64,000 nucleotides of DNA from Burkholderiaceae bacterium (GTDB taxonomy: Bacteria; Pseudomonadota; Gammaproteobacteria; Burkholderiales; Burkholderiaceae): assembly GCA_947452535.1 (NCBI GenBank), contig CANGCM010000003.1, positions 36,331-100,330 on the forward strand, read 5' to 3'. Each line of letters begins with the position of its first letter. The stretch's first letter is position 1. A model generated the notes under the pieces. The model had not been told where the DNA came from. It saw nothing but the letters and a program-made list of their open reading frames with translations, and searched no databases. The translations under genes were made by a program, and so were the position numbers. Positions 1-16,801 of the stretch are shown in pieces.

Positions 1-409
1 GCTCCTCAGCCTGCTCCAGCAAGAGGTTTTTATCGGCTGCTATAGCTTTTGTACTGGAGCTGAGATGCTCCATTTCAGATATCTTAAAACTACCCAGTGA
101 ATTAATATTGCCTGGAGTAACCCCCGTCACAATCCAATGACCGGCAAGCTCAACTACTACGAGTCTTTCACGGGAACCCAGATTCACTCCACCAACAATT
201 CTGGCTACTGAATTACCACCAATTTTCGAATTATTAAAGCGTTTCATAGCCCATGCAAAGGCAGCAATCACACCAAGCACAATCAGTAAACCAAAAACCA
301 CTCGAAACGGGCTACTACTATCATCAAAACTGGATGCCTGACCCATCTGCGCAAGTGCCAAGCTTGGCAATAGCACCAATGAAAGAAAGATGGGTCTGAT
401 CAGTTGCAT
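1..409 (-). CDS. fliO: Flagellar export-gate assembly protein FliO (C-terminus off the left edge)
   Basis: I translated this directly. It starts at an ATG 16 nt after the fliN stop and stays open to the window edge, giving about 136 residues. The protein begins with a signal-like hydrophobic segment (about residues 5-20). A second transmembrane helix follows (about residues 37-54), then a basic stretch and a small beta-rich domain with the pattern GSRERLVVVELAGHWIVTGV, which is typical of FliO. FliO is a small inner-membrane protein that helps assemble the FliP-FliQ-FliR export gate of the flagellar type III apparatus. Its place after fliL-M-N matches the usual fliLMNOPQR order, so fliP, fliQ and fliR probably lie just outside the window. 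Confidence 0.88.
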   Translation of the reverse strand, partial: MQLIRPIFLSLVLLPSLALAQMGQASSFDDSSSPFRVVFGLLIVLGVIAAFAWAMKRFNNSKIGGNSVARIVGGVNLGSRERLVVVELAGHWIVTGVTPGNINSLGSFKISEMEHLSSSTKAIAADKNLLLEQAEE

Positions 410-425
410 GATGGCGTCTAATAAA

Positions 426-773
426 TTATTTATTGAGCTTTCGGATGCGCTCTAACGGTGTGATGATTTCTGTTAGTCGCACACCAAACTTCTCATTAAC
501 AACAACGACCTCACCCTTAGCGATGATGTAGCCATTTACCAATATGTCCATCAAGTCACCTGCAGAACCCTCTAACTCCACAACAGATCCCTGGGCAAGC
601 TGTAATAAATTTTTGATGGTGATCTTCGTCCTACCCAATTCAACGGTGAACTGCACCGGAATATCGTGAATAAAATCAATATCTCTGATTGGCTCGTTTT
701 CAGAGCTTCCTTCAATCTCATTTAGCACCTCATCCTGAACGAGATCCTTATCTTGATTATTCTCATTACTCAT
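426..773 (-). CDS. fliN: Flagellar motor switch protein FliN
   Basis: This 115-residue protein has an acidic, probably disordered N-terminus (about 1-32). A SpoA/FliN C-terminal domain follows (about 36-110), with the typical IPVQFTVELGRTKITI and VNEKFGVRLTEII patterns. FliN forms the base of the C-ring with FliM, taking part in the rotation switch and docking the FliH-FliI export complex. The reading frame overlaps the end of fliM by 8 nt, which suggests translational coupling. The length is normal for the family. Confidence 0.95.
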   Translation of the reverse strand: MSNENNQDKDLVQDEVLNEIEGSSENEPIRDIDFIHDIPVQFTVELGRTKITIKNLLQLAQGSVVELEGSAGDLMDILVNGYIIAKGEVVVVNEKFGVRLTEIITPLERIRKLNK

Positions 774-1770
774 TATTTGCTTCCTTCACATACTCATTTA
801 AGTTTGATTGCAAAAACTTTTCGATCCTCAAGGCGTATTTCTTATTAAAAGTTCCATATCTACATTGCATCACTGGGACATCATCAACCGTTACCGTCAC
901 CAGCGGATCATATTCAAGAGGAATGAAATCACCAATTCTTAAAGACACAATGTTTTCTAGAAATAATTTTTTTCCACCCAAGTTGGCAACTAGTTCAAGC
1001 TCTACAGAATTCACTGTTTCGGCCATAGCCTCGATCCATTTGATATCGACGTCCTGAACCCTACCCTGCATTTGCGAGGTTAATAAATCTCTTATAGGCT
1101 CCAAAGCCGAATACGGAATACACAGATCCATTTCATAACTTTTTTCCTCAATCTCAATGGTGAAGGTCGTTGTTACAACGACCTCGCTCATCATTGCTAT
1201 ATTGGCAAACTGCATATTCATCTCAGATCGAATGTATTCATATTCGATTGGATGAACGGGAGCCCAAGCTTCTGTATAGGGCTCAAAGAAGACTTCTAAA
1301 ATACGCTCAACAATGCGGAGTTCTGTAGGTGTAAATTCTCTGCCCTCAGAGTTCGTCTTAAATCGACCACCACCGCCAAATAAGTTGTCAACCACAAATA
1401 GGACAAACTCAGGCTCGCATAGCATTAAGCTAGTAGCGCGTAATGGCTTTATCTTAATGAGATTGATATTGGTTGGGTCTTTATGCTTTGCAACAAACTC
1501 ACTGTACTTACAAGTTTCTACTGCGGTTGCCTTGATCTCTACTAAGCGACCCAAAAAGGTCGACATGCTAATTCTGAATAAACGGATAAAACGCTCGTGG
1601 ATGTTCTCGAATGTCGGCATTCGCCCACGGACAATACGCTCCTGACTTCCCAGGGCGAATGAAGTGGCCTGACCAGGACTCTCTTTCACGGATTCAGGCT
1701 CGGCCGCACCCTCCTCTACATTTTTTAGAAGAGCATCAATTTCTTGATCGGAGAGATTTTCATCAGTCAT
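766..1770 (-). CDS. fliM: Flagellar motor switch protein FliM
   Basis: This 334-residue protein is of normal length for FliM. The N-terminal LSDQEIDALL motif (residues 6-15) is the classical CheY-phosphate docking helix. The middle domain (about 45-230) carries the RIVRGRMPTFENIHERFIRL and FGGGGRF patterns of the FliG-binding region. A C-terminal SpoA domain (about 250-325) pairs with FliN. It is the middle ring of the switch complex and receives the chemotaxis signal. It lies between fliL (14-nt gap) and fliN (8-nt overlap) in the same operon. Confidence 0.96.
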   Translation of the reverse strand: MTDENLSDQEIDALLKNVEEGAAEPESVKESPGQATSFALGSQERIVRGRMPTFENIHERFIRLFRISMSTFLGRLVEIKATAVETCKYSEFVAKHKDPTNINLIKIKPLRATSLMLCEPEFVLFVVDNLFGGGGRFKTNSEGREFTPTELRIVERILEVFFEPYTEAWAPVHPIEYEYIRSEMNMQFANIAMMSEVVVTTTFTIEIEEKSYEMDLCIPYSALEPIRDLLTSQMQGRVQDVDIKWIEAMAETVNSVELELVANLGGKKLFLENIVSLRIGDFIPLEYDPLVTVTVDDVPVMQCRYGTFNKKYALRIEKFLQSNLNEYVKEANNE

Positions 1771-1784
1771 TTTTGGGATCGAAT

Positions 1785-2297
1785 TTATTGAACGATGAAA
1801 GAAGTAAAGTAGGCGCCAGTTAATTCTTGCTCTGACTCAGAACCCATAAATGGCTTTTTAAGTGCATTAATAATTTCAGAAGTCAGATTCACTTTTCCGT
1901 CCAAGGTAGAAACCTCCGAGGCGGATTTTGCAGAAAGAATGAATAAAATTCGATTTCTCACTTCAGGCATGCGATCTTTTAAGGCCTGAGCATCTTTTTC
2001 GCTGGGCACTTGCAAACTTAAGATTGCTTGAAGATATTGCTGAGAATCGCCGCTCTCAGGCCTCAGATTGACAGTAAATACTTCTAAGGGCACAAAAATT
2101 TGTACAACTGGTTTACTTTCGGCAGCTGAACCACTGGATCTATAAACTAAAAAGTAATAAGCGCCTGCACCTGCAACGAGCAGTGCAAGGACGGCAATAG
2201 CGATAGTTACAAATAGCTTTTTGTTGGATTTCTTTCTCGGCGCACGTGCAACTTCCGCCTCATCCTTTGCGTCTTTTTTGTTAGGTGCTATAGCCAT
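1785..2297 (-). CDS. fliL: Flagellar basal-body-associated protein FliL
   Basis: This 170-residue protein has a Lys/Arg-rich cytoplasmic tail (1-28), one transmembrane helix (about 29-51) and a periplasmic FliL domain (about 65-170). The domain shows FVPLEVFTVNLRP and the C-terminal AYFTSFIVQ pattern. FliL surrounds or supports the MotAB stator at the basal body. It is the first gene of the LMNO block. A Shine-Dalgarno-like TGGAG precedes the ATG. The 132-nt gap upstream holds only a weak 6-bp hairpin near 2362. Confidence 0.93.
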   Translation of the reverse strand: MAIAPNKKDAKDEAEVARAPRKKSNKKLFVTIAIAVLALLVAGAGAYYFLVYRSSGSAAESKPVVQIFVPLEVFTVNLRPESGDSQQYLQAILSLQVPSEKDAQALKDRMPEVRNRILFILSAKSASEVSTLDGKVNLTSEIINALKKPFMGSESEQELTGAYFTSFIVQ

Positions 2298-2429: not shown

Positions 2430-2861
2430 TTAAACCCTAAGGCTCACAGAGCTAGGATTGACTGGTATGAACTTGTTTTGTGCATCAATATAGGGGTTCA
2501 ATGCAGCTTGGAGAAGCCCCAAATTCTGACCAGAAAGCATATCTGGCGCACGAAACTCATTTTGCTTAGCAATTTGAATTGAGCTGCCAGCAGACCCAAG
2601 AGAATTAGGGCTCAGATTTTTTACCAAGGATTGAACCAATTTATCTGAGCTAGCCCCTAAAGCCACGCCGCCAACTCCTGGCAATGCAACTGAAGCTGCA
2701 ATACCTGCGCCAGCCCCCAAGGTCTTGCCTAGTAAATTGGTAAATTGCGCCAAAAAACTCGCTTTTTGCAAGGAGCCCTTGTTTGGAGTGGCCGAAACAC
2801 CGCTGGAATAAACTTCTCCAGCACCAGAGCCAACAAGGAAGGGGTTAATTGAGGTATCCAA
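2430..2861 (-). CDS. Unrecognised protein encoded within the flagellar operon
   Basis: I do not recognise this 143-residue protein. It has a Gly/Ala-rich hydrophobic centre (about 47-70, LGAGAGIAASVALPGVGGVA) that could be a membrane-active or amphipathic segment, flanked by Ser/Asn-rich ends. The only standard start codon is a TTG at 2861, and no convincing ribosome-binding site precedes it, so the true start is uncertain. It lies between the BLUF gene and fliL on the same strand, so it is probably co-transcribed with flagellar genes. A rod, hook or export accessory is possible, but nothing in the sequence shows it. Confidence 0.6.
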   Translation of the reverse strand: MDTSINPFLVGSGAGEVYSSGVSATPNKGSLQKASFLAQFTNLLGKTLGAGAGIAASVALPGVGGVALGASSDKLVQSLVKNLSPNSLGSAGSSIQIAKQNEFRAPDMLSGQNLGLLQAALNPYIDAQNKFIPVNPSSVSLRV

Positions 2862-3021: not shown

Positions 3022-3327
3022 TCATAACGCCCCTTCCTCAGAATTGAAATAAGTACTGGACCAGTCTGGATATTCTCTCAAATCAATTGGACCCTCTTGA
3101 ATAATACTCACTAAGGTATGCCTTGAATCTACTCTAATGGTCGAATAGAGCCTAGAAATAATTTCCTGCTCACCCTCCAATACCTGCATAAAATTCCCAT
3201 CCTTAAACATCAACACGCCAGTAATATCCAAAGCCTCATTTCTACTCTTTGAAAGCGCTACGAGCTCTAAAAATTCATCCCTAGCAAGATTTTTAGTGGC
3301 CGAACTAATGTAGATAAGTTGATACAT
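3022..3327 (-). CDS. BLUF-domain blue-light photoreceptor inside the flagellar operon
   Basis: This 101-residue protein is a single BLUF domain (FAD-binding blue-light sensor) with no attached output domain. Visible hallmarks are the N-terminal QLIYISSATK with the flavin-proximal Tyr6, Asn30 in the SRNEALDITG stretch, Gln48 in NFMQVLEGE, and the distal RHTLVSIIQEGPI and YPDWS motifs. Tyr6 and Gln48 correspond to the Tyr-Gln pair essential for BLUF photochemistry. It starts 12 nt after the fliK stop, on the same strand as the surrounding fli genes, so co-transcription is likely. Short BLUF proteins signal by binding partners. The partner here is unknown, but location suggests a link to flagellar assembly or motility. 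Confidence 0.93.
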   Translation of the reverse strand: MYQLIYISSATKNLARDEFLELVALSKSRNEALDITGVLMFKDGNFMQVLEGEQEIISRLYSTIRVDSRHTLVSIIQEGPIDLREYPDWSSTYFNSEEGAL

Positions 3328-3339
3328 GAATATCTATCA

Positions 3340-4473
3340 TTAGACGTAGAAATTGACTATCTTGGCCGCATTCAAATCAGTTACATCGAGCTTACTTGGG
3401 CCGTCTCTTGCTATGACCTCATTTGCTTGATAACTGGAACCAGAGCTAATATTTAGGTGACTTAAAACCAGTCCGGCTTCCAGCATCGATGATTTAAGAT
3501 CACTCGAACCCATTTGAAGCGCCTGAAGAACATCAGAATTATTAGAATGAAAGCTGACGCTTACTTGATCGCCCTTGATAAGAAGGATGATTTTTAGAGA
3601 CCCTTTATCAGCTGAGTTTAGAGTAATTACTGCGGTGTGTTTGTCAGATCCAAACATCACAATGGTTTTTTGCGCTAATTCTGTAATCCATTCTGGACTA
3701 GAGAGGGATGATTGCATCTGCAGTTGAATAGCACTGGCATCCCCCGAAGTTAAATCCTGCATGTGGTTTATAGAACTCATGGCCAACGCCCCCACAGCCT
3801 CAAGCTCATCCGCAGAGGGCTCTTCAGAGGCTTTGTCATGCGGATTACGATGATGTGGTGAATCTTTCAAGAATTGCCCATGACTAGAGCCATCATCCTT
3901 TGCTAAAAGCTCGGCTGCTTCAGCTTCTCCAGCTTCTTCAGCCTCTTCGGCTTCACCGGCTAAATTGCGAGACCCATTTAAAACATGCTCATCTGCTTTG
4001 TACTTCAGGTAATTTAAAGTACGCGGAGTTCCTTGACTTGAAGGATTTGCGACTGAATATAAGGGGCTTGATCCATCCACCCTAGAGATATTGCGACCCA
4101 ACTTATCAACAGCAGAAGTAAGTGCAACACTAGCATTGCTTTGCTTATATTCTGCAATGTTTTTCATTGCAAGGATGTATTCAGTCTGATGAATATTGAC
4201 CTCAAAAGCATGAATAGATTTGCTATTCAATTGGCTATATGTCTTGGATTGACTCAATATTTGATTGGCATGGACAACATCTGGCGAGAGGAGTTTTGCA
4301 GAATTTAAGCCCTGCTTACCATCATCCATTTTGAATAGCGCAGCTTGTGTACTTAAAACCTCACCGAAAGTACCGCCTGATCGCACAGTAGCATTAACGC
4401 CATTACCGCTGGTAGCTGAAGCCCCATTAGCTTTTACTAATAAGGGATCATGAGATTGCAGTTCGATGCTCAT
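3340..4473 (-). CDS. fliK: Flagellar hook-length control protein FliK
   Basis: I chose the ATG at 4473 (MSIELQSHD), 4 nt after the fliJ stop. A reading frame starting at 4527 would overlap fliJ by 50 nt. The protein is then 377 residues. A long low-complexity N-terminal half (the secreted ruler region) contains an Ala/Glu-rich segment near residue 180. The C-terminal Flg_hook-type domain (about 250-350) has VITLNSADKGSLKIILLIKGDQVSVSF. FliK measures hook length and switches FlhB export specificity. Its place directly after fliJ fits the canonical fliFGHIJK order. N-terminal sequence is poorly conserved in this family, so the call rests on the C-terminal domain plus synteny. Confidence 0.85.
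   Translation of the reverse strand: MSIELQSHDPLLVKANGASATSGNGVNATVRSGGTFGEVLSTQAALFKMDDGKQGLNSAKLLSPDVVHANQILSQSKTYSQLNSKSIHAFEVNIHQTEYILAMKNIAEYKQSNASVALTSAVDKLGRNISRVDGSSPLYSVANPSSQGTPRTLNYLKYKADEHVLNGSRNLAGEAEEAEEAGEAEAAELLAKDDGSSHGQFLKDSPHHRNPHDKASEEPSADELEAVGALAMSSINHMQDLTSGDASAIQLQMQSSLSSPEWITELAQKTIVMFGSDKHTAVITLNSADKGSLKIILLIKGDQVSVSFHSNNSDVLQALQMGSSDLKSSMLEAGLVLSHLNISSGSSYQANEVIARDGPSKLDVTDLNAAKIVNFYV
3912..3956 (-). repeat. Imperfect 9-nt tandem repeat within fliK
   Basis: Five consecutive 9-base units, roughly CAGCTTCTT on the plus strand, run in frame through fliK. On the coding strand they encode an Ala/Glu/Gly-rich stretch (AEEAEEAGEAEAAE). Units differ by one to three bases. 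Because 9 is a multiple of three, gain or loss of units would change FliK length without breaking the frame. Confidence 0.75.
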
Positions 4474-4477
4474 ATTT

Positions 4478-4933
4478 TCAGTGAAAAACTGCCGTATGAA
4501 ATTGGCGATGAGTAATTGCAAACTCATCCATTAATTTTTGATCTGACTTTAACTCTAAGGCACGCTTCTCTTTTTTATTCTTTTCAATCAGTATTTCATA
4601 CTTCCGTTTCTTTGCCTCACAAGCTTGCCAAAACTTCATATGCTGCTTAACGACCTCAAGATACTGTTCAATCACGATTTCTTGAGTTTTGACAGCAGAA
4701 TCAATGCTATCTAAGAAGGCTTGAAAGTTTTGTAAATCAACAACAGCCATGCCCTGCGAGAGCCGAACTGCATTTTTTACAACATATTCCTCTCGATAGA
4801 ACAGTAGTTGCTCTTTTTGCGCTTTAGACTCATTGGCAGTGCGATGTGCCTTAGCCAATTGCTCAGCCGCCATATCAACCTCGCGCTTGGCTAACTTTAG
4901 TAGTAGGTGCATAGCTTGAGATGAATAGCTCAT
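4478..4933 (-). CDS. fliJ: Flagellar export chaperone FliJ
   Basis: This 151-residue protein is almost entirely charged and helical, with a heptad pattern predicting an antiparallel coiled coil. The family-like segments are [20 protein letters not shown] and [21 protein letters not shown]. FliJ is the central stalk of the flagellar export ATPase, analogous to F1 gamma, and links FliI to FlhA. It overlaps fliI by 4 nt (ATGA type), which supports translational coupling. Length and synteny agree with the family. Confidence 0.9.
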
Positions 4934-6372
4934 GAAGTGCCCTCCAGGATGTTTTGTATGCCATCAAGGCTCTCCTCAATGCTAGCTCTAACCTTTAAAT
5001 CTTGCTTCAAGAATTGCTCTATTAACTGATGCTTTTGTATGGCTTCGTCCAATATTGGGTCAGCGCCACTAACATAAGCACCCACATTAATTAAATCGAG
5101 GTTACGACTATATTTAGCATTCAGCTGTTTGATTTTCTGTGCATGCATTTGATGCTTTTCATCAATGATGCCGTGCATCACTCGACTAATAGACTGCTCT
5201 ACATTAATCGCCGGATAATGACCAGCTTCTGCTAATGCTCGATCTAGAACAATATGGCCATCTAAAATTGCACGTGCAGAATCGGCGATTGGATCTTGCT
5301 GATCATCACCTTCTGTTAGGACGGTATAAAAAGCAGTAATAGATCCACCGCCAAGCTCGCTATTGCCTGCACGCTCTACTAATTTTGGAAGCTTTGCAAA
5401 TACCGATGGAGGATAACCCTTTGTTGCCGGTGGTTCACCAACAGCCAAAGCGATCTCTCGTTGAGCCATAGCAAAGCGAGTTAATGAATCCATGATCAAT
5501 AAAACATGCTTACCTTCATCACGGAAGTATTCAGCAATACTTGAACAATAGTTCGCTGCCTGGACCCGCATGAGGGGTGACTCATCTGCTGGAGAGGCAA
5601 TGACCACAGAACGCTTTAGGCCATCTTCACCTAATATATTCTCAATAAACTCTTTTACTTCACGGCCGCGCTCACCAATGAGGCCGACAACAATAACGTC
5701 TGCATCGGTATATCTAGCCATCATTCCCAATAAAATACTTTTACCCACTCCAGATCCCGCAAATAAGCCCATGCGTTGACCCCGACCCACGGTAAGTAGG
5801 CCATTAATGGCTCGCACTCCAACATCTAAAATATGATCGATCGGTGAACGCTTTAAGGGATTAATTGGTTCAGATTGGAGGGATGAGAAAAATTGGGCAT
5901 TTAATGGGCCAAATTGATCAAGCGGTCTTCCAGATGCATCAAGCACTCTACCTAATAATTCAGGCCCAACAGGCAATTGCATACTGTTGGAATTCGAGTT
6001 TGCCTGGAAATTTTTATCATTCTGAATATCTGCAAATAAACGTCCATACTTTGCAGGCATACTTTTGAGGTATACCCTTGTGCCAGGGGATAAACCTTCA
6101 GTGCTACTTTGAGGCATCAAGAAAAGTTTTTGCTTATCAAAGCCAACAACCTCAGCTTCTATAGTCTTGTTATCAGATAGAGGTATTACGCAAGTGCTCC
6201 CAACGGATAACTCGATGCCTGATACTTCAATGACTAAGCCCGTTACCCTAACTACCCGACCAGCAAACTGCATGGTCTCTATTCCTGAAAGGGTTTCATG
6301 ACAGTTATTTAAAAAACGGGAAAGTAAACCAGTGAAATCTTGTTGGATATCCTGGTTCAAATGAGGGATCAT
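4930..6372 (-). CDS. fliI: Flagellum-specific ATP synthase FliI
   Basis: This 480-residue protein is a RecA/F1-type export ATPase. An N-terminal beta-barrel is followed by the Walker A sequence AGSGVGKS (residues 205-212), a catalytic [12 protein letters not shown] motif and the Walker B region [19 protein letters not shown]. The C-terminal helical domain ends near ILEGTS. It energises export of flagellar axial proteins and works as a hexamer with FliH and FliJ. A Ser/Asn-rich linker near residues 118-132 is slightly longer than I expect but lies outside the catalytic core. It overlaps fliH and fliJ by 4 nt each. Confidence 0.97.
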
Positions 6373-7016
6373 TTTACTTCCTCATGCCAATCTAGATTCT
6401 TACCTAATGATTCAGCAATAAATTTCCAGCGCACTTCATTAGTAGCGTCCATAGAATTATTTGCCGTGTCTATAAAACACCCGCCTCTATCGATATTTGC
6501 GCTCTCTACTAGCTGCCATTGCTTTTTACTCAGCTCATCATGCAAGTACTGTCGCACAATGACTGCGTCATCAGGATGGACGGTGAGCTTTAACTCGCTA
6601 GCATCAATGAATTGTCTAGTTGCCTCGCCAATAGTAGCTTTAATCACATCGGGGTTAATTTTAATTTCAGATCGAATCATCGACTGAGCTATCGCTAAAG
6701 AAAGAGTGAGGACATCATCACAAATCTCTACATTTTTCGAGTTAATGCTTGCACCAAACTGTCCCATCAAGGCGGCCAAAGCAAGCTTTTCATTAGCATT
6801 TTCAGACTGCGCTAAAGATTTACCTTTGGAATATCCGTCTTTGAATCCGGAATCATGACCCTCTGCGTAAGCTTTATCGATCACTGCCTGAATTTCTTCG
6901 GCAGTTAACTGAGGAACCGCGTCTGGATCCTCTTTTGGAATAGGATTAGCAAAGCCTGGCGGTACAAGGTCAACAAAAATTAAACTATTGTCCCTATTAG
7001 ACATAAGACTCATCAC
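6369..7016 (-). CDS. fliH: Flagellar export regulator FliH
   Basis: This 215-residue protein has an N-terminal proline-rich segment and a GxxxG-like helical stretch ([20 protein letters not shown], about 51-70) typical of FliH. The C-terminal FliH/HrpE domain (about 90-205) contains [17 protein letters not shown]. FliH dimerises, binds the FliI N-terminus, regulates the ATPase and tethers it to FliN. The reading frame overlaps fliG by 20 nt and fliI by 4 nt, as expected in a tightly packed operon. Confidence 0.92.
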
Positions 7017-8007
7017 CCTTATTGCTCAGCATGATTTGGCCTTCCTCAAACAGAGTACGAACAATCTGCAGGATTTCTTTTTGGGCGCCTTCAACATCAG
7101 ATAACTTAACAGGGCCTTTATTTTCTAGATCATCCCGCATCATATCTGCAGCTCGAGTAGACATATTTTTGAATATTTTCTCTCTCAGCTCTGCACCAGT
7201 GCCCTTAAGAGCAGTAATTAATACCTCAGATTGCACATCGCGGAGAATAGTTTGGATACCTTTATCGTCAATACCCAGAATGTCATCAAACACGAACATT
7301 TCATCCATGATTTTTTGAGCCATGTCGATATCGTATTCTTTAAAACTATCCATCAGAATCACTTCTTGAGGACCGGTAATAAAGTTCATAATCTCAGCAG
7401 CAGCTCGTATTCCACCAATTTGTTTTTTGCCACCCGCTTGATTGGTGGCAAGTAATTTACCCAATACTGCGTTAAGCTCTTTGAGCGCTGTTGGCTTGAT
7501 TTCTTCCAGGGTAGCAATACGGAGCATTACATCTTTGCGCAAATCTTCAGTAAATAGAGTCAATACTTGGGACGCTTGATCGGGCTCTAAGTGCACCAGG
7601 ATGGTTGCAATAATTTGCGGGTGTTCGTAACGGATTAAATCTGCAACTGCAGTTCCATCCATCCACTTCAAACTTTCAATACCATCAGAATCTCGACTAT
7701 CTAAGATTCTCTGGAATAGGCCACTTGCTGTTTCGTTACCGAGCGCTTTACTTAATACATTTCGAGTAAATTCATCGGTATCAAAGTTCAGTGCTGCGCC
7801 CTCACCAGCTACACTAAAAAATTCTCTTAGGGTCGAAGCAACTTCGCTTTGCTCCACTCTTCTGAGAGTGGCCATAATCCCACCCAAGCGCTGAACATCT
7901 CTTGGGCTAATGTATTTCATGACCTCAGCAGCACCCTCCTCGCCGAGGGCGAGCATCAGTACCGCTGCTTTACTTAGGCCATCAGTATTAGGAGGAGGCA
8001 TTTCCAC
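6997..8007 (-). CDS. fliG: Flagellar motor switch protein FliG
   Basis: This 336-residue protein shows all three FliG domains. The N-terminal domain contacts FliF (about 7-100, KAAVLMLALGEEGAAEVMKY). The middle domain carries the EHPQIIATILVHLEP motif (about 128-142). The C-terminal torque domain (about 240-330) holds the charged helix facing the stator. FliG couples the MS ring to the C-ring and generates torque with MotA. It overlaps fliF by 20 nt and fliH by 20 nt. Confidence 0.97.
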   Translation of the reverse strand: MEMPPPNTDGLSKAAVLMLALGEEGAAEVMKYISPRDVQRLGGIMATLRRVEQSEVASTLREFFSVAGEGAALNFDTDEFTRNVLSKALGNETASGLFQRILDSRDSDGIESLKWMDGTAVADLIRYEHPQIIATILVHLEPDQASQVLTLFTEDLRKDVMLRIATLEEIKPTALKELNAVLGKLLATNQAGGKKQIGGIRAAAEIMNFITGPQEVILMDSFKEYDIDMAQKIMDEMFVFDDILGIDDKGIQTILRDVQSEVLITALKGTGAELREKIFKNMSTRAADMMRDDLENKGPVKLSDVEGAQKEILQIVRTLFEEGQIMLSNKGDESYV

Positions 8008-9634
8008 TCGCCCAGTTAGATACTACGTCAGCAACCACCTTCGGATTGTCTTTGGCTAATTTCTGCACATTGTCAATATCTCGCTGATAAGGAGACTTTT
8101 TGATCACCGGCATACCCGCATCATCCATATCATCTTCCAAGGCTAGAGCTGCTTGAGCGCGTCCAGGGAACATGGACTCCCCTGAAGCCCATTTAGCTAA
8201 CATTGGCTTTAGCGCTTTTCTATACAGGAGGAAGGCAATCAAGATGCTGAGGATAATTTTTCCTGAGTCTTTAGCCATATCAAGATAACTAGCATCTTTC
8301 CAAACAGGTAGATCAGGCATATCGCTCGCTCTATTGTCGGTAAATGGCGTATTCACTACTGACAAGCTATCGCCCCGCTCCTCATTAAAGCCCATAGCCT
8401 TTTTAGCCAGCTCTGAAATTTGGGCTTTTTCATCATCATTCAATGGGCGACTGGTAATAACGCCGTCCTTATCGACTTCTTGTTTGTTGTTGACAACCAC
8501 TGCGACGGAGAGCCTCTTAATGCCGCCCATCGATTTTTGCTCATAAGTGACCGTCTTATTAATCTCGTAATTGGTCAGTGTTTTCTTATCACTACCCATT
8601 GCTGGTGACGGTGCAGCATCTGCGGCAGGTCCAGCACCCGCCCTAGCGTTTGCAATTGGTGCGTTAGCATTTGCCGCCGGCTGATTACTTGTGGCACCCG
8701 GAATTCCACCTGCAGTACCACCACCTGAATTAGCGCCACCTACAGGCTGATTGGCCTCATAGGTTTGCATGCTTCTAATAGCAGCAGTCTTTGAATCCTG
8801 ATTTGGCTTGAATATTTCATTGGCCTCTTCAATACTGGAGAAATCAATTTCGGCATTTGCCTCCGCTTTCACGTTCTTAGCACCCATGATTGGAGTGATG
8901 ATGGACTGAACGCGCTTAGCAACGTTACGCTGAATTTCATCAACGTACTTCATTTGACTCGCATCAAGCGTTTTTTCGCCTTTTTTACCCTGGTCAGATA
9001 ATAGATTACCGCCGCTATCGACGATATCAACCCCTGCCGTAGGTAGATTTGGAACGCTGCTCGATACTAAGTGCACGATTGCACTCACTTGACGCTGTTC
9101 TAAGGATCTTCCTGGAGCTAGCTTTACCAACACCGAGGCGGTAGGCTTTTGATCTTCACGGATAAAGACGGTTGACTTTGGAATCGCCAGATGAACACGA
9201 GCGTTATCAACCCCAGAAATAGATTGAATACTTCTCTCAAGCTCTCCCTCCAGAGCACGCTGATAATTGACCTGCTCAACAAACTGCGACACTCCGAACT
9301 TTTGATTTTCAAGTAACTCAAAACCCACATTTCCAGCTCTAGGAAGACCCATAGCCGCAAGTCTCAATCTAGTTTGATAAACCTGGTCATCAGGTACCAA
9401 AATAGACGCCCCACCGTCCGCAAGCTTATAGGGAACATTCATTTGCTCTAATGCGGCCACTATCGCGCCCCCATCCTTATCATTAAAGTTGGAAAAGACG
9501 ACCTTATATTTGCCACCCATACTCCACATTAGAACTACGCTAATAATGGCAACGGTTGCAGCAATACCAAAGGCCAATAGCATCTTCCCGCTACTTTCGC
9601 CATTTAGATTCATTCGCTCCATTAGTTTTTCCAC
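7988..9634 (-). CDS. fliF: Flagellar MS-ring protein FliF
   Basis: This 548-residue protein has a first transmembrane helix (about 19-39) and ring-building motifs with YceF/FliF domains (KVVFSNFNDKDGGAIVAAL; GVDNARVHLAIP). A Gly/Ala/Asn-rich periplasmic linker spans about 295-345. A second transmembrane helix lies near 455-472, and a cytoplasmic tail binds FliG. It forms the MS ring, the platform for the export gate. The start is a GTG at 9634 with an AAGGG Shine-Dalgarno sequence about 9 nt upstream; an ATG four codons later is the alternative. It is the first large gene of the minus-strand fli operon. Confidence 0.96.
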   Translation of the reverse strand: MEKLMERMNLNGESSGKMLLAFGIAATVAIISVVLMWSMGGKYKVVFSNFNDKDGGAIVAALEQMNVPYKLADGGASILVPDDQVYQTRLRLAAMGLPRAGNVGFELLENQKFGVSQFVEQVNYQRALEGELERSIQSISGVDNARVHLAIPKSTVFIREDQKPTASVLVKLAPGRSLEQRQVSAIVHLVSSSVPNLPTAGVDIVDSGGNLLSDQGKKGEKTLDASQMKYVDEIQRNVAKRVQSIITPIMGAKNVKAEANAEIDFSSIEEANEIFKPNQDSKTAAIRSMQTYEANQPVGGANSGGGTAGGIPGATSNQPAANANAPIANARAGAGPAADAAPSPAMGSDKKTLTNYEINKTVTYEQKSMGGIKRLSVAVVVNNKQEVDKDGVITSRPLNDDEKAQISELAKKAMGFNEERGDSLSVVNTPFTDNRASDMPDLPVWKDASYLDMAKDSGKIILSILIAFLLYRKALKPMLAKWASGESMFPGRAQAALALEDDMDDAGMPVIKKSPYQRDIDNVQKLAKDNPKVVADVVSNWASGNASS

Positions 9635-11824: not shown

Positions 11825-12475
11825 TTAAGAAATAATGTTATTCCTGATAGCATAATGCGCTAATTCTGCTGTACTTGTCATTCCCATTTTCTTTAAAGCA
11901 CGTGACCGATACATGCTAATAGTCTTGGTTGATAATTTCATCCGATCTGCAATTTGGGTCAAGGTTAATCCAGAGGCAACCATAACGAGATATTGGTACT
12001 CACGATCCGATAAGGATTCATGTGGGTCTCCATCAAAGCTCTTTTCATAAGCCTGGGTCGCTAAGATATTAGCAACATTAGGACTAACATATTTAGCATT
12101 GGATGCAACTTGCCTAATCGCTCCGACCAAGTCAGCTGTTGAGGACGATTTTGTAATATAGCCAGAGGCGCCTGCTTTTAAAACTCTGACTGCGTAAAGA
12201 TTTTCTGGATGCATGGACAGCACAAGAATGGGCAGTTTTTTGTTTTCACGGCGAATGGCCTTGATTACATCTATTCCACTTTTATCTTCGAGATCTAGAT
12301 CTAAAACCAAGCAATCAATTAAATGATTTGAAACGAATTTAATCACATCAGGAGCTGTACCCAATTGCGCGGCAATTTCAATGCCTGGGTAGGTAGAAAG
12401 AATCTGTGCAAGCCCTTCCCTCAAAACAACATGATCGTCAGCCAACGCTAAGCGGATATGCCTCATTAGGGTCAT
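11825..12475 (-). CDS. NarL/LuxR-family response regulator
   Basis: This 216-residue protein has a receiver domain (about 6-125), with acidic Asp13-Asp14, predicted phospho-acceptor Asp59 in VLDLDLE and conserved Lys109 in YITKS. A LuxR-type helix-turn-helix domain (about 153-215) carries LSDREYQYLVMVASGLTLTQIADRMKLSTKTI. It is a DNA-binding transcription regulator. No cognate histidine kinase with an ATPase domain lies next to it, but the small H-box protein at 14532 is about 2 kb away. Its targets are not evident. The flagellar neighbourhood makes motility control plausible. Confidence 0.92.
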   Translation of the reverse strand: MTLMRHIRLALADDHVVLREGLAQILSTYPGIEIAAQLGTAPDVIKFVSNHLIDCLVLDLDLEDKSGIDVIKAIRRENKKLPILVLSMHPENLYAVRVLKAGASGYITKSSSTADLVGAIRQVASNAKYVSPNVANILATQAYEKSFDGDPHESLSDREYQYLVMVASGLTLTQIADRMKLSTKTISMYRSRALKKMGMTSTAELAHYAIRNNIIS

Positions 12476-12526: not shown

Positions 12527-13843
12527 CTAGGATTTTGCTCTATTGATTTGGCTATTTAGCTCATTACTCCAGCGAATAGCTTGAATTTGGATATTAGTTA
12601 TTTGCTCAGCAGTTAAGTCTAATGACTTTCTTATAGACTCCATCTCATCGAAATTGACTGATTCAATAGCGTCAGCTAGGTTTAGCAATTGGCCAAATAA
12701 GCCCTCTCGATGCAGTAGACCATTTTGTAACTGCTCGGCTAATGGTATTTGAGCTAATACCTCTTCAAGCGATAAATCAGTTACATGATTAATCAGGGAG
12801 AGCATGCCCACCATAAATGCCTGATCGCTAATACCTGGCTGTGCAATATCGTTTTGTTGCGACAAAAGCTCTAGGAACTTAGCTCGGTTAACCACCCTCT
12901 GCTGTAAGTCAGTATTTAATTTTGATCCAGCTTGGGTATAAACCAATAACATCATCCACTGAAGTAATTGTTTTTGACCCAGCACAACTAATGCTTGACG
13001 CACACTTGATATCTGCATGTGCCCGCCAATCCCAACAGAGTTAACTAGGCGTAACAATCCTAAGGTTAAGTCAGGGCTATTTTTAAAATACGGCTCTATC
13101 GAATCAATGTCTGAATCTTTGAATAGCAAGCCAATCAACTGAATTAAGCTTAATTGCTCAGCCTTGGGCTTTTTACCTTTAAGCAGAGTTGGCTGAGAAA
13201 AATACTCACCTTGAAAAAGCTTAATACCCAAATCCTTGCATAACTCAAAATCGGCCTCTGTCTGAACATGCGCTGCAAAAATGGCAACCGTGGGTGACTT
13301 CTTCCGAACCTCTGCAACCAGCACCTTGAAATTATCTTGCGACAATTGATTTAAGACTACAGATTGGCCATCAAGCATAGTTAAGGCAAGATTTACTTTA
13401 ATGTAGTCCAGTAAATTAGTAATGTTTTCATTTGCGACAGAAAAGTTAAACCATTCCACAGCAAAACGAAATCCTTTTCGCTTGAGAGCCTGAAGGCGCT
13501 CAATAGCCTCTTCTCCAAATCGAGAGAAATCAATTAACTCCAGGACAATTCTGCGCGGGGGCAATAAGTCGATTGCGTTACTGGTAAGCATCTTCTCAGA
13601 AACAGGAATAAATCCGTCCACATCACCAAGAACACTTTCAAGACCGAAATGACTCATCGCGTTAATGATGATATTGCTACTAGCAGCTAAATCATCTTCA
13701 TCGGTATGGTTGTCCAGACTTTCCTTAGACCTAAATAGCATTTCGTAGGCAACGATTTTTCCGCGAACATCTAGGATGGGATTTCTGCCCAGAAAGATAT
13801 CTGCAGAATTAGCATCCACCAGAACCGGATCAGACTGAATCAT
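12527..13843 (-). CDS. EAL-HDOD signalling protein with degenerate EAL motif
   Basis: This 438-residue protein has an EAL-like domain (about 17-205) followed by an HDOD domain (about 215-410). The signature EAL is changed to YEMLFR, and other metal-binding acids are not obvious, so phosphodiesterase activity is unlikely. The HDOD part carries the LGLLRLVNSVG and IQLIGLLF patterns. Such YuxH-type proteins usually act as c-di-GMP-related sensors or scaffolds. It lies upstream of the response regulator on the same strand with a 51-nt gap, so the two may be co-transcribed. A second EAL-HDOD gene is at 15191. Confidence 0.88.
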   Translation of the reverse strand: MIQSDPVLVDANSADIFLGRNPILDVRGKIVAYEMLFRSKESLDNHTDEDDLAASSNIIINAMSHFGLESVLGDVDGFIPVSEKMLTSNAIDLLPPRRIVLELIDFSRFGEEAIERLQALKRKGFRFAVEWFNFSVANENITNLLDYIKVNLALTMLDGQSVVLNQLSQDNFKVLVAEVRKKSPTVAIFAAHVQTEADFELCKDLGIKLFQGEYFSQPTLLKGKKPKAEQLSLIQLIGLLFKDSDIDSIEPYFKNSPDLTLGLLRLVNSVGIGGHMQISSVRQALVVLGQKQLLQWMMLLVYTQAGSKLNTDLQQRVVNRAKFLELLSQQNDIAQPGISDQAFMVGMLSLINHVTDLSLEEVLAQIPLAEQLQNGLLHREGLFGQLLNLADAIESVNFDEMESIRKSLDLTAEQITNIQIQAIRWSNELNSQINRAKS

Positions 13844-13990: not shown

Positions 13991-14395
13991 TTAGGCCGAA
14001 GTATTGATAATGGAGCCCAGACTAGCACCAACCAATAAAGAGTGATCCGTATGGTCAACCGTAGGATTGCCCGGATTGCTAGCGCTCTGTGGATTATTGG
14101 GTCCAGCCACTTTATTTAGCTGTTGTGTTTCCTGGGAATTAGCAATATCTCTGGCCACTTGATCCATTTGAGTTTTATCGCCAGTACCAAGGGAACGCTG
14201 AAGCTTTTCAAATAGGGAGCTAGGCGAAATGATCCCGCCGCTTCCAACAAAGCCTAAAAGTGCTTGTTGCGCCGCATCAATATCTCCGCTACGCAAGGCT
14301 GCGTTTAGAGCCCCAAGATATCTGCTTTTAATATCTTGAGTAGATGGGTCAGGTGAACCACCATACGATGAAATTGAATTAATCTGCATATTCAT
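13991..14395 (-). CDS. Unrecognised 134-residue protein
   Basis: I do not recognise a family. The start is well supported: a strong AGAGGAGG lies about 6 nt before the ATG at 14395. The N-terminal half is helical and Ala-rich (SRYLGALNAALRSGDIDAAQ at about 25-44, then QALLGFV), reminiscent of a short helical repeat. The second half is Gln/Asn/Pro-rich and likely disordered. No signal peptide or membrane helix is seen. It sits alone in the signalling block, with an AT-rich 136-nt region upstream that probably contains its promoter. Confidence 0.7.
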   Translation of the reverse strand: MNMQINSISSYGGSPDPSTQDIKSRYLGALNAALRSGDIDAAQQALLGFVGSGGIISPSSLFEKLQRSLGTGDKTQMDQVARDIANSQETQQLNKVAGPNNPQSASNPGNPTVDHTDHSLLVGASLGSIINTSA

Positions 14396-15190: not shown

Positions 15191-16801
15191 CTATTGTTCT
15201 TCTGAGGTCTCTTCAACCTCAGCATCAGGCCACTCATCCTCGTCGGGCTCTTCTTGAGTCTGCTGAACGAAGCTTCGAATAGCATGCAAGGAGTCATCGG
15301 CAATCGCTTGCATCGTTAGCGGCTCTAAATCATCTACAGCCAATAAACGCAACTGCTCTTCATCACCCAGCTCAGCGGCACGCGCCAACTCCAGTAATTG
15401 CCCTAAAAAACCGCTTCCGTCTGAAATGGCATCAACAACGGCATGAGGCAAATTAAAGTCCTGCAGCACTTCACGGCTAGGCTTATCAAAAAGCACCTCA
15501 ACCAAGGATAATCCGCCAGTTAAGAAGGCTAGATCGGTAGAGGCGAGTCCGCCCCCGGCCCCAAGACGGCCCGCGGCATTTTCCATGAAGAATGCACGCA
15601 CACAAACGTGTTGCAATAAAGGCAAGGAATCCAGATGAACGCCCGCACTATTGTTGGCATATAACAATAACTGGGTCCATCGGGTAATCCGTTTAATCCC
15701 AGACAGAACGACTGCATCACGCACGTTTACAACCTTGCGGTTCTTTCTTTTCCCTTCAATTTCAGCAATCTTAATAAGATGCTTGGCCACAGTCGGATTT
15801 TGAGATAGCTCAGAATCCAATTGGGACAATTCTGGGTTCGAAAGCAAGAGAGTTAGCAACTTTAAGAGCTTAAGATGCTTTTCATCTCTGTGCATGGACG
15901 TTTCTGGAGCGGCATGGGTAAAAAAGTAGCCCTCAAATAGATCAAAACCAAGCTCTTTAGCTTGATGTAATGCATCTATCGTATTTACATCGGTGGCGAG
16001 AGCCTGGATCTCTAATTCATGGCATTTATCAATAATTTCTTTTAATTGATCATGATTACCATGGACCGGATCCAGCTTTACAAACTTGAAAAGCGGCAAA
16101 ATATCGCTGTAACCCTCAAAAAGATGGTCAAAATCAGTGAGCACTAATTGATACTTCACTCTATTGAGACTCTCGCATTCCTTCAGAACCTCAGGATCCG
16201 CCAGAAGCTTGTAAGGAATCTCCAAGGCAAATTTCAGCGCTGGAAGCGACCTCACCTTCTTATCTAGCAAAATCTCTTTATTGACCTTAATGAATCCAAT
16301 TTGACGACCAAGAGAATTTGCTACTCCCTTTTCACGCAAGGCACGCATGACTTCGCTCAGCTTTACAAATGGCTCTGGAGGCAATTCTGGAGGGGTCTCT
16401 GATGCATTTTCCTCTGCGGACTCAGGCTGCTTTTCTTGCTCCCGGTCTTCATTGGAGACTTCACCAGGCCCATCGGAATCTTCTGGATTCGACTCATTTG
16501 CGCTAGATTCATCGTCCTCTGCGGGCAAATACGAATTAGGATTTAAGTCTTTTTCAGCAATTTCTTCTGGAGTTGCGCCGGCAAAAATCAACTCAGCCCG
16601 TTTTAAGGCAATGGCATTGGCTCGGTCAGCAGCGTCTTCAGTACCCATCCTAAAAAATAATTCAAAACCCATCAATACGCTGTTTTTATCAACGATTGGC
16701 TCGCGTCCAAAATAGGCGTTTTCTGGTTGAATTTGCTCAGGTGGCTCAAACGCTTCTGGCTCTTCTGGCTTGCTACTTTTAAATTTTGAAAAGAATCCCA
16801 T
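15191..16801 (-). CDS. Second EAL-HDOD protein with acidic insertion
   Basis: This 536-residue protein has a degenerate EAL domain (FELFFR in place of the EAL motif, near residues 46-51) interrupted by an acidic low-complexity insert. The insert spans about residues 88-148 and is rich in Glu, Ser, Asn and Pro. An HDOD domain follows (about 310-500), then an acidic tail. It is organised like the protein at 12527 but is not a close copy. Loss of catalytic residues suggests a scaffolding or ligand-sensing role. The insert would form a flexible loop on the EAL surface, a possible protein-interaction site. Confidence 0.85.
   Translation of the reverse strand: MGFFSKFKSSKPEEPEAFEPPEQIQPENAYFGREPIVDKNSVLMGFELFFRMGTEDAADRANAIALKRAELIFAGATPEEIAEKDLNPNSYLPAEDDESSANESNPEDSDGPGEVSNEDREQEKQPESAEENASETPPELPPEPFVKLSEVMRALREKGVANSLGRQIGFIKVNKEILLDKKVRSLPALKFALEIPYKLLADPEVLKECESLNRVKYQLVLTDFDHLFEGYSDILPLFKFVKLDPVHGNHDQLKEIIDKCHELEIQALATDVNTIDALHQAKELGFDLFEGYFFTHAAPETSMHRDEKHLKLLKLLTLLLSNPELSQLDSELSQNPTVAKHLIKIAEIEGKRKNRKVVNVRDAVVLSGIKRITRWTQLLLYANNSAGVHLDSLPLLQHVCVRAFFMENAAGRLGAGGGLASTDLAFLTGGLSLVEVLFDKPSREVLQDFNLPHAVVDAISDGSGFLGQLLELARAAELGDEEQLRLLAVDDLEPLTMQAIADDSLHAIRSFVQQTQEEPDEDEWPDAEVEETSEEQ

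Follow-up and report, generated by a model that had tools for sequence, protein, structure and literature searches.

A gene for a short BLUF protein is embedded in the flagellar operon of a freshwater Polynucleobacter lineage, in every genome of that lineage found, and the canonical Gln/Met pair of the protein has been replaced in most members of the family. BLUF domains are textbook light switches, and it is tempting to suggest that this one has taken up another task, as a core-only BLUF with altered coupling that stays mostly signalling-like and helps the flagellum constitutively, in an accessory or regulatory capacity, instead of turning on and off with light; this reading is given a little less than an even chance. 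The evolutionary account that accompanies it, in which one insertion was followed by the fixation of different switch-pair replacements in separate branches, yielding naturally light-locked BLUFs that are used constitutively by the flagellum, is put forward tentatively, as a distinctly possible course of events. The gene was studied in a window of 64,000 nucleotides (i.e., the whole stretch of DNA analysed), in which the relevant features, with their strands, are the following:

2..409 (-): fliO, truncated by the window end, named by its position after fliN, with same-place matches in relatives
426..773 (-): fliN (PF01052, 1.8e-24)
766..1770 (-): fliM (PF02154, 5.7e-59)
1785..2297 (-): fliL, type A form (PF03748, 3.1e-21)
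2430..2861 (-): ORF143, 143 aa, Gly/Ala/Ser-rich, between the BLUF gene and fliL, without a Pfam match
3022..3327 (-): BLUF gene, ATG start, 101 aa, core fold only (b1-a1-b2-b3-a2-b4-b5)
3055..3057 (-): Ser91 codon, a position held by Met in canonical BLUFs (PixD Met93)
3184..3186 (-): Gln48 codon, the flavin-contacting Gln, which is Glu or Gly in other flagellar-type BLUFs
3328..3339 (-): fliK-BLUF gap, 12 nt, without a coding-strand promoter or terminator pattern
3340..4527 (-): fliK (PF02120, 7.3e-14), ending 12 nt before the BLUF gene
4478..4933 (-): fliJ, an ORF; relatives show the same order
4930..6372 (-): fliI, an ORF; relatives show the same order
6369..7016 (-): fliH, an ORF; relatives show the same order
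6997..8007 (-): fliG, an ORF; relatives show the same order
7988..9634 (-): fliF, an ORF; relatives show the same order
11825..12475: response regulator (receiver + GerE) beside the flagellar cluster
12527..13843 (-): EAL-HDOD protein 1, with a degenerate EAL domain (PF08668 + PF00563), a candidate BLUF partner
15191..16801 (-): second EAL protein, 536 aa, degenerate (PF00563, 9.5e-08; Pfam finds EAL only)

The gene order around the BLUF gene is fliF-G-H-I-J-K-BLUF-ORF143-fliL-M-N-O, in which the names fliJ, fliI, fliH, fliG and fliF (4478..9634) are presumed from position and family knowledge. ORF coordinates and Pfam agree with the initial annotation in placing the BLUF gene 12 nt after fliK, on the same strand and within the flagellar operon; its placement between fliK and fliL likewise stands, with the addition that a conserved ORF (2430-2861) also precedes fliL. 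The gap to fliK measures 5-18 nt in all 14 intact orthologues, and a pattern scan of this gap in the window gave neither a promoter nor a terminator for the coding strand. An opposite-strand promoter-like site (3311-3340) and a weak terminator-like site inside ORF143 (2772-2758) are both within shuffle expectation. A FliA-like consensus had no match. The window has 12 sigma-54-like sites where 5.7 would be expected, a number reached in 2 of 100 shuffles, and none of them falls within the gap. The short spacing and the absence of such patterns fit co-transcription of fliK and the BLUF gene, which is not to say that they prove it.

ORF143 shows 71-73% identity in three close relatives, with dN/dS of 0.09-0.14, and most type A loci have an ORF of similar size at this position. 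No counterpart was seen in two genomes (G084 and G034), where the BLUF gene ends 129 nt before fliL, and the candidacy of ORF143 as an obligate BLUF partner is weakened by this lack.

The encoded protein has PF04940 as its sole Pfam match (E 2.7e-27; 95.1 bits, cut-off 25; residues 1-90) and retains Tyr6, Asn30, Gln48 and Trp89, so that the single-domain BLUF with intact Tyr6, Asn30 and Gln48 reported by the initial annotation is borne out by both domain match and sequence. The Trp-x-Met motif of strand 5 is incomplete, with Trp89 kept and Ser91 in place of Met; since this motif is common rather than invariant in the BLUF domain family, Ser91 does not exclude membership. An AlphaFold2 model built from 100 aligned sequences (pLDDT 95.0) shows the BLUF fold and stops at strand 5, with a short low-confidence tail beyond it and no C-terminal helices, and the model of a Glu-form flagellar BLUF adds only an extra short strand and a low-confidence helix turn. 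The 50 Foldseek matches listed among solved structures are all BLUF proteins, led by AppA, Tll0078, PixD and OaPAC, the best being the AppA BLUF domain (1yrx; TMq 0.87), and phmmer against PDB sequences gave 22 matches, including photoactivated cyclases, Tll0078, Slr1694, AppA and BlrP1. Both fold and family are already known, and a chance ORF or pseudogene is ruled out by the Pfam match, the dN/dS values and the orthologues. Asp67, Arg69 and His70 help flavin binding, and flavin binding by the protein is predicted from the retention of these residues together with Tyr6, Asn30 and Trp89. The genome from which the window derives is 74.6% complete, in 74 contigs, and contains four BLUF genes, the flagellar one being that at 3022-3327. 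Another (L001:1483-2703, + strand) encodes a 406-aa BLUF-EAL protein with Phe at the usual Trp position of strand 5 and an EAL part that is taken to be intact from its motifs.

The distribution of the gene was surveyed in 186 Polynucleobacter genomes, with BLUF identified by alignment score and FliL by PF03748. FliL is present in 59 genomes, 15 of which carry the type A form (defined by a FliL match spanning 309 nt), and the other 44 carry other FliL types. An orthologous BLUF, at 117-228 bits, occurs in 15 of the 186, which are exactly the 15 type A genomes, and in every one of these its place is between fliK and fliL; the copy of G095 is broken. The next-best BLUF in the genus (G015; 89.5 bits) is a 158-aa frame in a 3.3-kb locus without fli genes, and no flagellar-type BLUF was found in the 127 congeners without FliL. 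A BLUF HMM gave no match near fliL in 22 type B, two type A’ and four type C genomes, some of these pieces being short, and 16 of the 44 flagellated genomes that are not type A were judged from BLUF alignment scores alone. Of the nearest fliL loci in other genera of the order, 29 of 29 had no BLUF HMM match within 1.5 kb on either side, and a comparison by eye of fliL and BLUF places among the matches listed, which may miss pairs, found no pair closer than 20 kb outside the window’s genome. Across 299 genomes of the family, the highest BLUF score from another genus (74.7 bits, in G302) likewise belongs to a 3.3-kb locus without fli genes. Finally, a search of 84,980 species genomes with two peptide patterns of the flagellar BLUF family returned 80 loci, ten of which are these flagellar loci; tblastn with the window’s proteins found fli genes at none of the remaining 70, given flanks of at most 8 kb and some short contigs, and distant cases may escape such patterns.

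The same placement in 15 of 186 genomes is far above chance. Sporadic occurrence at the site had been named from the outset as a possible refutation, and the neighbourhood survey found instead a gene present at 15 of 15 type A flagella, which rules out sporadic insertion; its absence from the other fliL loci checked similarly rules out a general feature of flagellar operons or a core flagellar gene. Polynucleobacter has several distantly related flagella, namely types A, A’/C and B, plus a further FliL of 210-227 aa, and the type B FliL is about 250 aa long, with a match spanning 453 nt as against the 309 nt of type A. Among the papers searched, no account was found of a fixed place for a BLUF gene in a flagellar operon or of natural Glu, Gly and Ser variants; in one paper that treats both BLUF and flagellar genes, the BLUF gene is located apart from the latter (PMC4149021).

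The history of the gene can be read from two trees. A quick tree of FliF, FliG, FliI, FliM and FliN (19 rows) unites the ten type A rows in one clade (SH-aLRT 99), with G084 and G034, the P. aenigmaticus/P. finlandensis branch, basal within it, A’ and C together outside it, and B distant. A BLUF tree of 74 rows, from which columns 48 and 91 were left out, places the 40 flagellar rows in one clade (100/99) against 34 others, congeneric BLUFs included; with few columns, and with long branches among the other BLUFs, it was used only for this split and for branches within the flagellar family. The simplest reading would be that the gene was inserted once, on the stem of type A, and has been inherited vertically ever since.

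Since then, the gene has evidently been maintained by selection. In the nine pairs, out of 12, whose dS is above 0.1, BLUF dN/dS (NG86; rough, as some dS values exceed 1) is 0.023-0.073, indicating strong purifying selection, as compared with 0.11-0.29 for fliK and 0.055-0.097 for fliL; the remaining three pairs, with few changes, range from 0 to 0.14. Selection is no weaker where the Gln has been lost (0.023-0.043 in the Glu48 branch), and the protein is therefore constrained even without the photoactive Gln. The gene can nonetheless be lost in one lineage, as shown by the broken copy of G095 (L015 / L088), which is cut short by a stop following residue 74 and whose host does possess CheW and MCP genes, and by a similar 74-aa form (P0033) found on 17 contigs.

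The replacement of the switch pair is best seen against other BLUFs. The residue sample comprised the fetched loci and the best 120 of 1918 proteins, chosen by similarity, and both sites were available in 40 of 43 distinct flagellar-type rows (three fragments were dropped) and in 189 of 192 other BLUF rows (three dropped). At positions 48 and 91, whose residues couple the flavin to the protein, the canonical Gln/Met pair is replaced in 37 of the 40 flagellar-type sequences, either through Gln48 to Glu or Gly or through Met91 to Ser, Ala, Thr or Ile: the pairs are Gln/Ser in 17, Glu/Met in 15, Gln/Met in three, Gln/Ala in two, and Gln/Thr, Gly/Thr and Gly/Ile in one each, which puts Glu or Gly at position 48 in 17 of 40. 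None of these replacements occurs among the 189 other BLUFs sampled, which have Gln/Met (179), Gln/Leu (9) or Arg/Met (1). Fisher’s test on the pair gives 6e-30 and treats related sequences as independent, and as the flagellar-type sequences are related, their residue counts are not independent events; on the BLUF tree, at least two changes are required at position 48 and at least five at position 91. Residues associated with flavin binding are kept, namely Asn30 and Trp89 (each 41 of 41), Tyr6 (39 of 41), Asp67 and Arg69 (each 40 of 42) and His70 (42 of 42). Flagellar-type proteins are also short, at 99-116 aa in 28 of the 29 listed (P0003 has 137 aa), and the intact orthologues within Polynucleobacter have 105-116 aa, as compared with the 101 aa of the window protein; most of the next relatives have 126-156 aa. 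Two sequences deserve separate mention: in P0062, a BLUF that does not belong to the flagellar family, Arg replaces the flavin Gln, and P0031, a fragment among the Glu/Met rows, begins like a peptidase M50 and ends with a Glu-type BLUF tail; it comes from a contig of 893 bases and is probably a chimeric assembly.

Changes at the same two positions have been made in the laboratory. In the text available from PMC5899715, the BLUF Gln is termed strictly conserved and the Met highly conserved, and Met93 of PixD is described as connecting the active site with the C-terminal helices, which matter for the signal. The same source reports that the red shift of the flavin persists in PixD M93A, whereas the protein no longer changes upon illumination, and that the mutant behaves in vivo as though locked in its signalling state. 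Likewise, AppA Q63E and Slr1694 (PixD) Q50A are described as pseudo-light-locked in the portion available of PMC6695109, and the title of Dragnea 2010, as given in the reference list of PMC4780082, describes locked mutants in the same way. Mutant effects do vary among BLUFs, e.g., BlsA W92A is lit-like and Slr1694 W91A behaves like the wild type (PMC6695109, same portion). The flagellar BLUFs, judged by their sequences, combine short length with replacements at two sites whose mutants are reported to be locked.

On this basis, a constitutive role could arise as follows. The BLUF protein would share its message with FliK and FliL, as the 5-18 nt gap to fliK suggests, and would still bind flavin, as predicted from the residues kept. 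If AppA Q63E and PixD M93A are a guide, replacement of Gln48 or Met91 would then hold it in the lit state or uncouple it from that state, and the outer face of the sheet, free in the predicted absence of C-terminal helices, could dock a partner from the same cluster, for which FliK, FliL, a C-ring protein and the type-A-specific EAL-HDOD protein are candidates. Light switching may persist in the basal branch, where Gln and Met are kept. The analogy with the locked mutants is limited, as the mutated proteins do have C-terminal helices, and the nine of 189 other BLUFs with Leu at position 91 speak against the locked reading.

The main rival, considered unlikely overall, is a working blue-light switch acting through Gln48, in which light alters binding to a flagellar protein and thereby tunes assembly or the motor. 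Tyr6, Asn30, Gln48 and Trp89 are intact in the window protein, its operon position is conserved, and PixD M93A keeps its flavin red shift (PMC5899715, as excerpted). Ser91 can itself hydrogen-bond, so that the window BLUF may still switch, and the three members with Gln/Met could be genuine photoswitches; it is for the Gln/Met branch that such a switch is most plausible. A direct flagellar input would also be useful, as neither CheW nor MCP scores over cut-off in 11 of the 15 type A genomes, among them G081 and G007, where an MCP match falls short of it. The other four do have such genes: in G084 and G034 they share a contig with the flagellar genes, at a distance of about 10-45 kb, in G095 they are on separate contigs, and in G430 the distance is about 0.7 Mb. 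For the window’s own genome (G000), which is incomplete, the absence is weak evidence. However, the same holds for flagellated genomes of other types, which have no flagellar BLUF: of 18 tested, 13 likewise have neither gene over cut-off. Further against a switch, Met91 is Ser in the window and the pair is changed in 37 of 40 sequences, the output helices are missing from the model, and selection is equally strong where the Gln is lost. A BLUF that stands in for CheY at FliM would be speculation; it was considered because most type A genomes are without CheW and MCP, but so are most of the other flagellated relatives tested. The window FliM (766-1770) starts with an EIDALL-type peptide, presumably the CheY-binding motif, and this peptide is altered in the Glu48 branch. 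The initial annotation had proposed that the light signal acts on flagellar assembly or the motor: the embedding has proved old and conserved (15 of 15), and the part assigned to light is weakened by the replaced pair, the missing helices and the undiminished selection without Gln.

Less probable still, and rather doubtful, is an arrangement of the PapB-PapA kind, in which the short BLUF regulates the separate EAL-HDOD protein of the cluster and reaches the flagellum through it. EAL-HDOD protein 1 is present in 14 of 15 type A genomes (the one without it, G046, is a fragmented MAG) and in none of 21 other Polynucleobacter tested, and in 13 of the 14 it lies 9-20 kb from the BLUF gene on the same contig; such co-occurrence may equally reflect one inherited cluster. 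Its EAL Asp-Asp motif is lost in the window protein and present, among 13 aligned, only in G084 and G034, the same basal branch that keeps the BLUF Gln/Met pair. This joint retention favours the arrangement and is suggestive only, being one correlated branch, and turnover of c-di-GMP by the window protein is unlikely, as its EAL looks degenerate. The precedent of PapB-PapA supports such a partnership, and yet PapB is thought to signal via C-terminal helices, which are absent here (both from the accessible part of PMC8846402). The initial annotation had set aside a separate effector domain; with the type-A-specific EAL-HDOD protein in the cluster, a separate effector may still be involved. A 134-aa ORF without a Pfam match (13991-14395, - strand) lies between the two EAL genes and has same-place matches in G281 (60%) and G109 (33%).

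A passenger role, in which a general BLUF with a function unrelated to flagella came to lie in the operon by chance, is improbable: a physical or functional link to flagella is so far putative and one lineage has a broken copy, but flagellar-type BLUFs were seen only at the type A flagellum (15 of 15, and none in the 127 congeners without FliL), fli genes are absent by tblastn from the 70 other BLUF loci (metagenomic members have no known context), and the spacing to fliK is short throughout.

Taken as a whole, these data describe a natural BLUF family that belongs to one flagellum and is strongly constrained, with Gln and Met changed in separate branches. Should the constitutive, light-locked reading be true, a light sensor can be retained for a light-independent job. 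The natural Gln/Met, Gln/Ser and Glu/Met variants offer material for testing BLUF signalling. The protein may also be one of few regulatory inputs near the type A flagellum, because matches to CheW or MCP over cut-off are lacking in 11 of its 15 hosts.

Among known systems, PixD (Slr1694) and TePixD (Tll0078) share with the flagellar BLUF a single-domain fold (Foldseek TMq 0.83-0.87 among the matches listed), the Tyr, Asn, Gln and Trp sites and, for PixD, a link to motility, namely phototaxis (PMC5812497, in the text available). Unlike the flagellar BLUF, PixD acts on type IV pilus motility via PixE, a PATAN-CheY partner, whereas the one response regulator beside the window’s cluster is of the receiver-GerE kind; PixD also has C-terminal helices and Met93, and the flagellar family is without the helices, mostly without the Gln/Met pair, and housed in a flagellar operon. 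The laboratory mutants AppA Q63E, PixD M93A and PixD Q50A are changed at the positions that differ in the natural flagellar BLUFs, where Glu stands for Gln and Ala or Ser for Met, but in the flagellar family the changes have become fixed in nature, in lineages on which purifying selection acts. PapB-PapA of Rhodopseudomonas palustris resembles the present case in that a short BLUF without an effector domain has an EAL-type protein available as a candidate partner, although the protein here is a degenerate EAL-HDOD encoded about 9 kb away. BlsA of Acinetobacter is likewise a short BLUF that affects motility in light (PMC6695109, from the portion available), but with a 156-residue chain and an effect on surface motility, as opposed to the 101-aa, flagellar-linked protein of the window. 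Finally, YcgF/BluF and BlrP1 are BLUF-EAL proteins, of which the window’s genome has one as well (L001), and they carry their effector in the same chain as the BLUF domain, unlike the flagellar BLUF.
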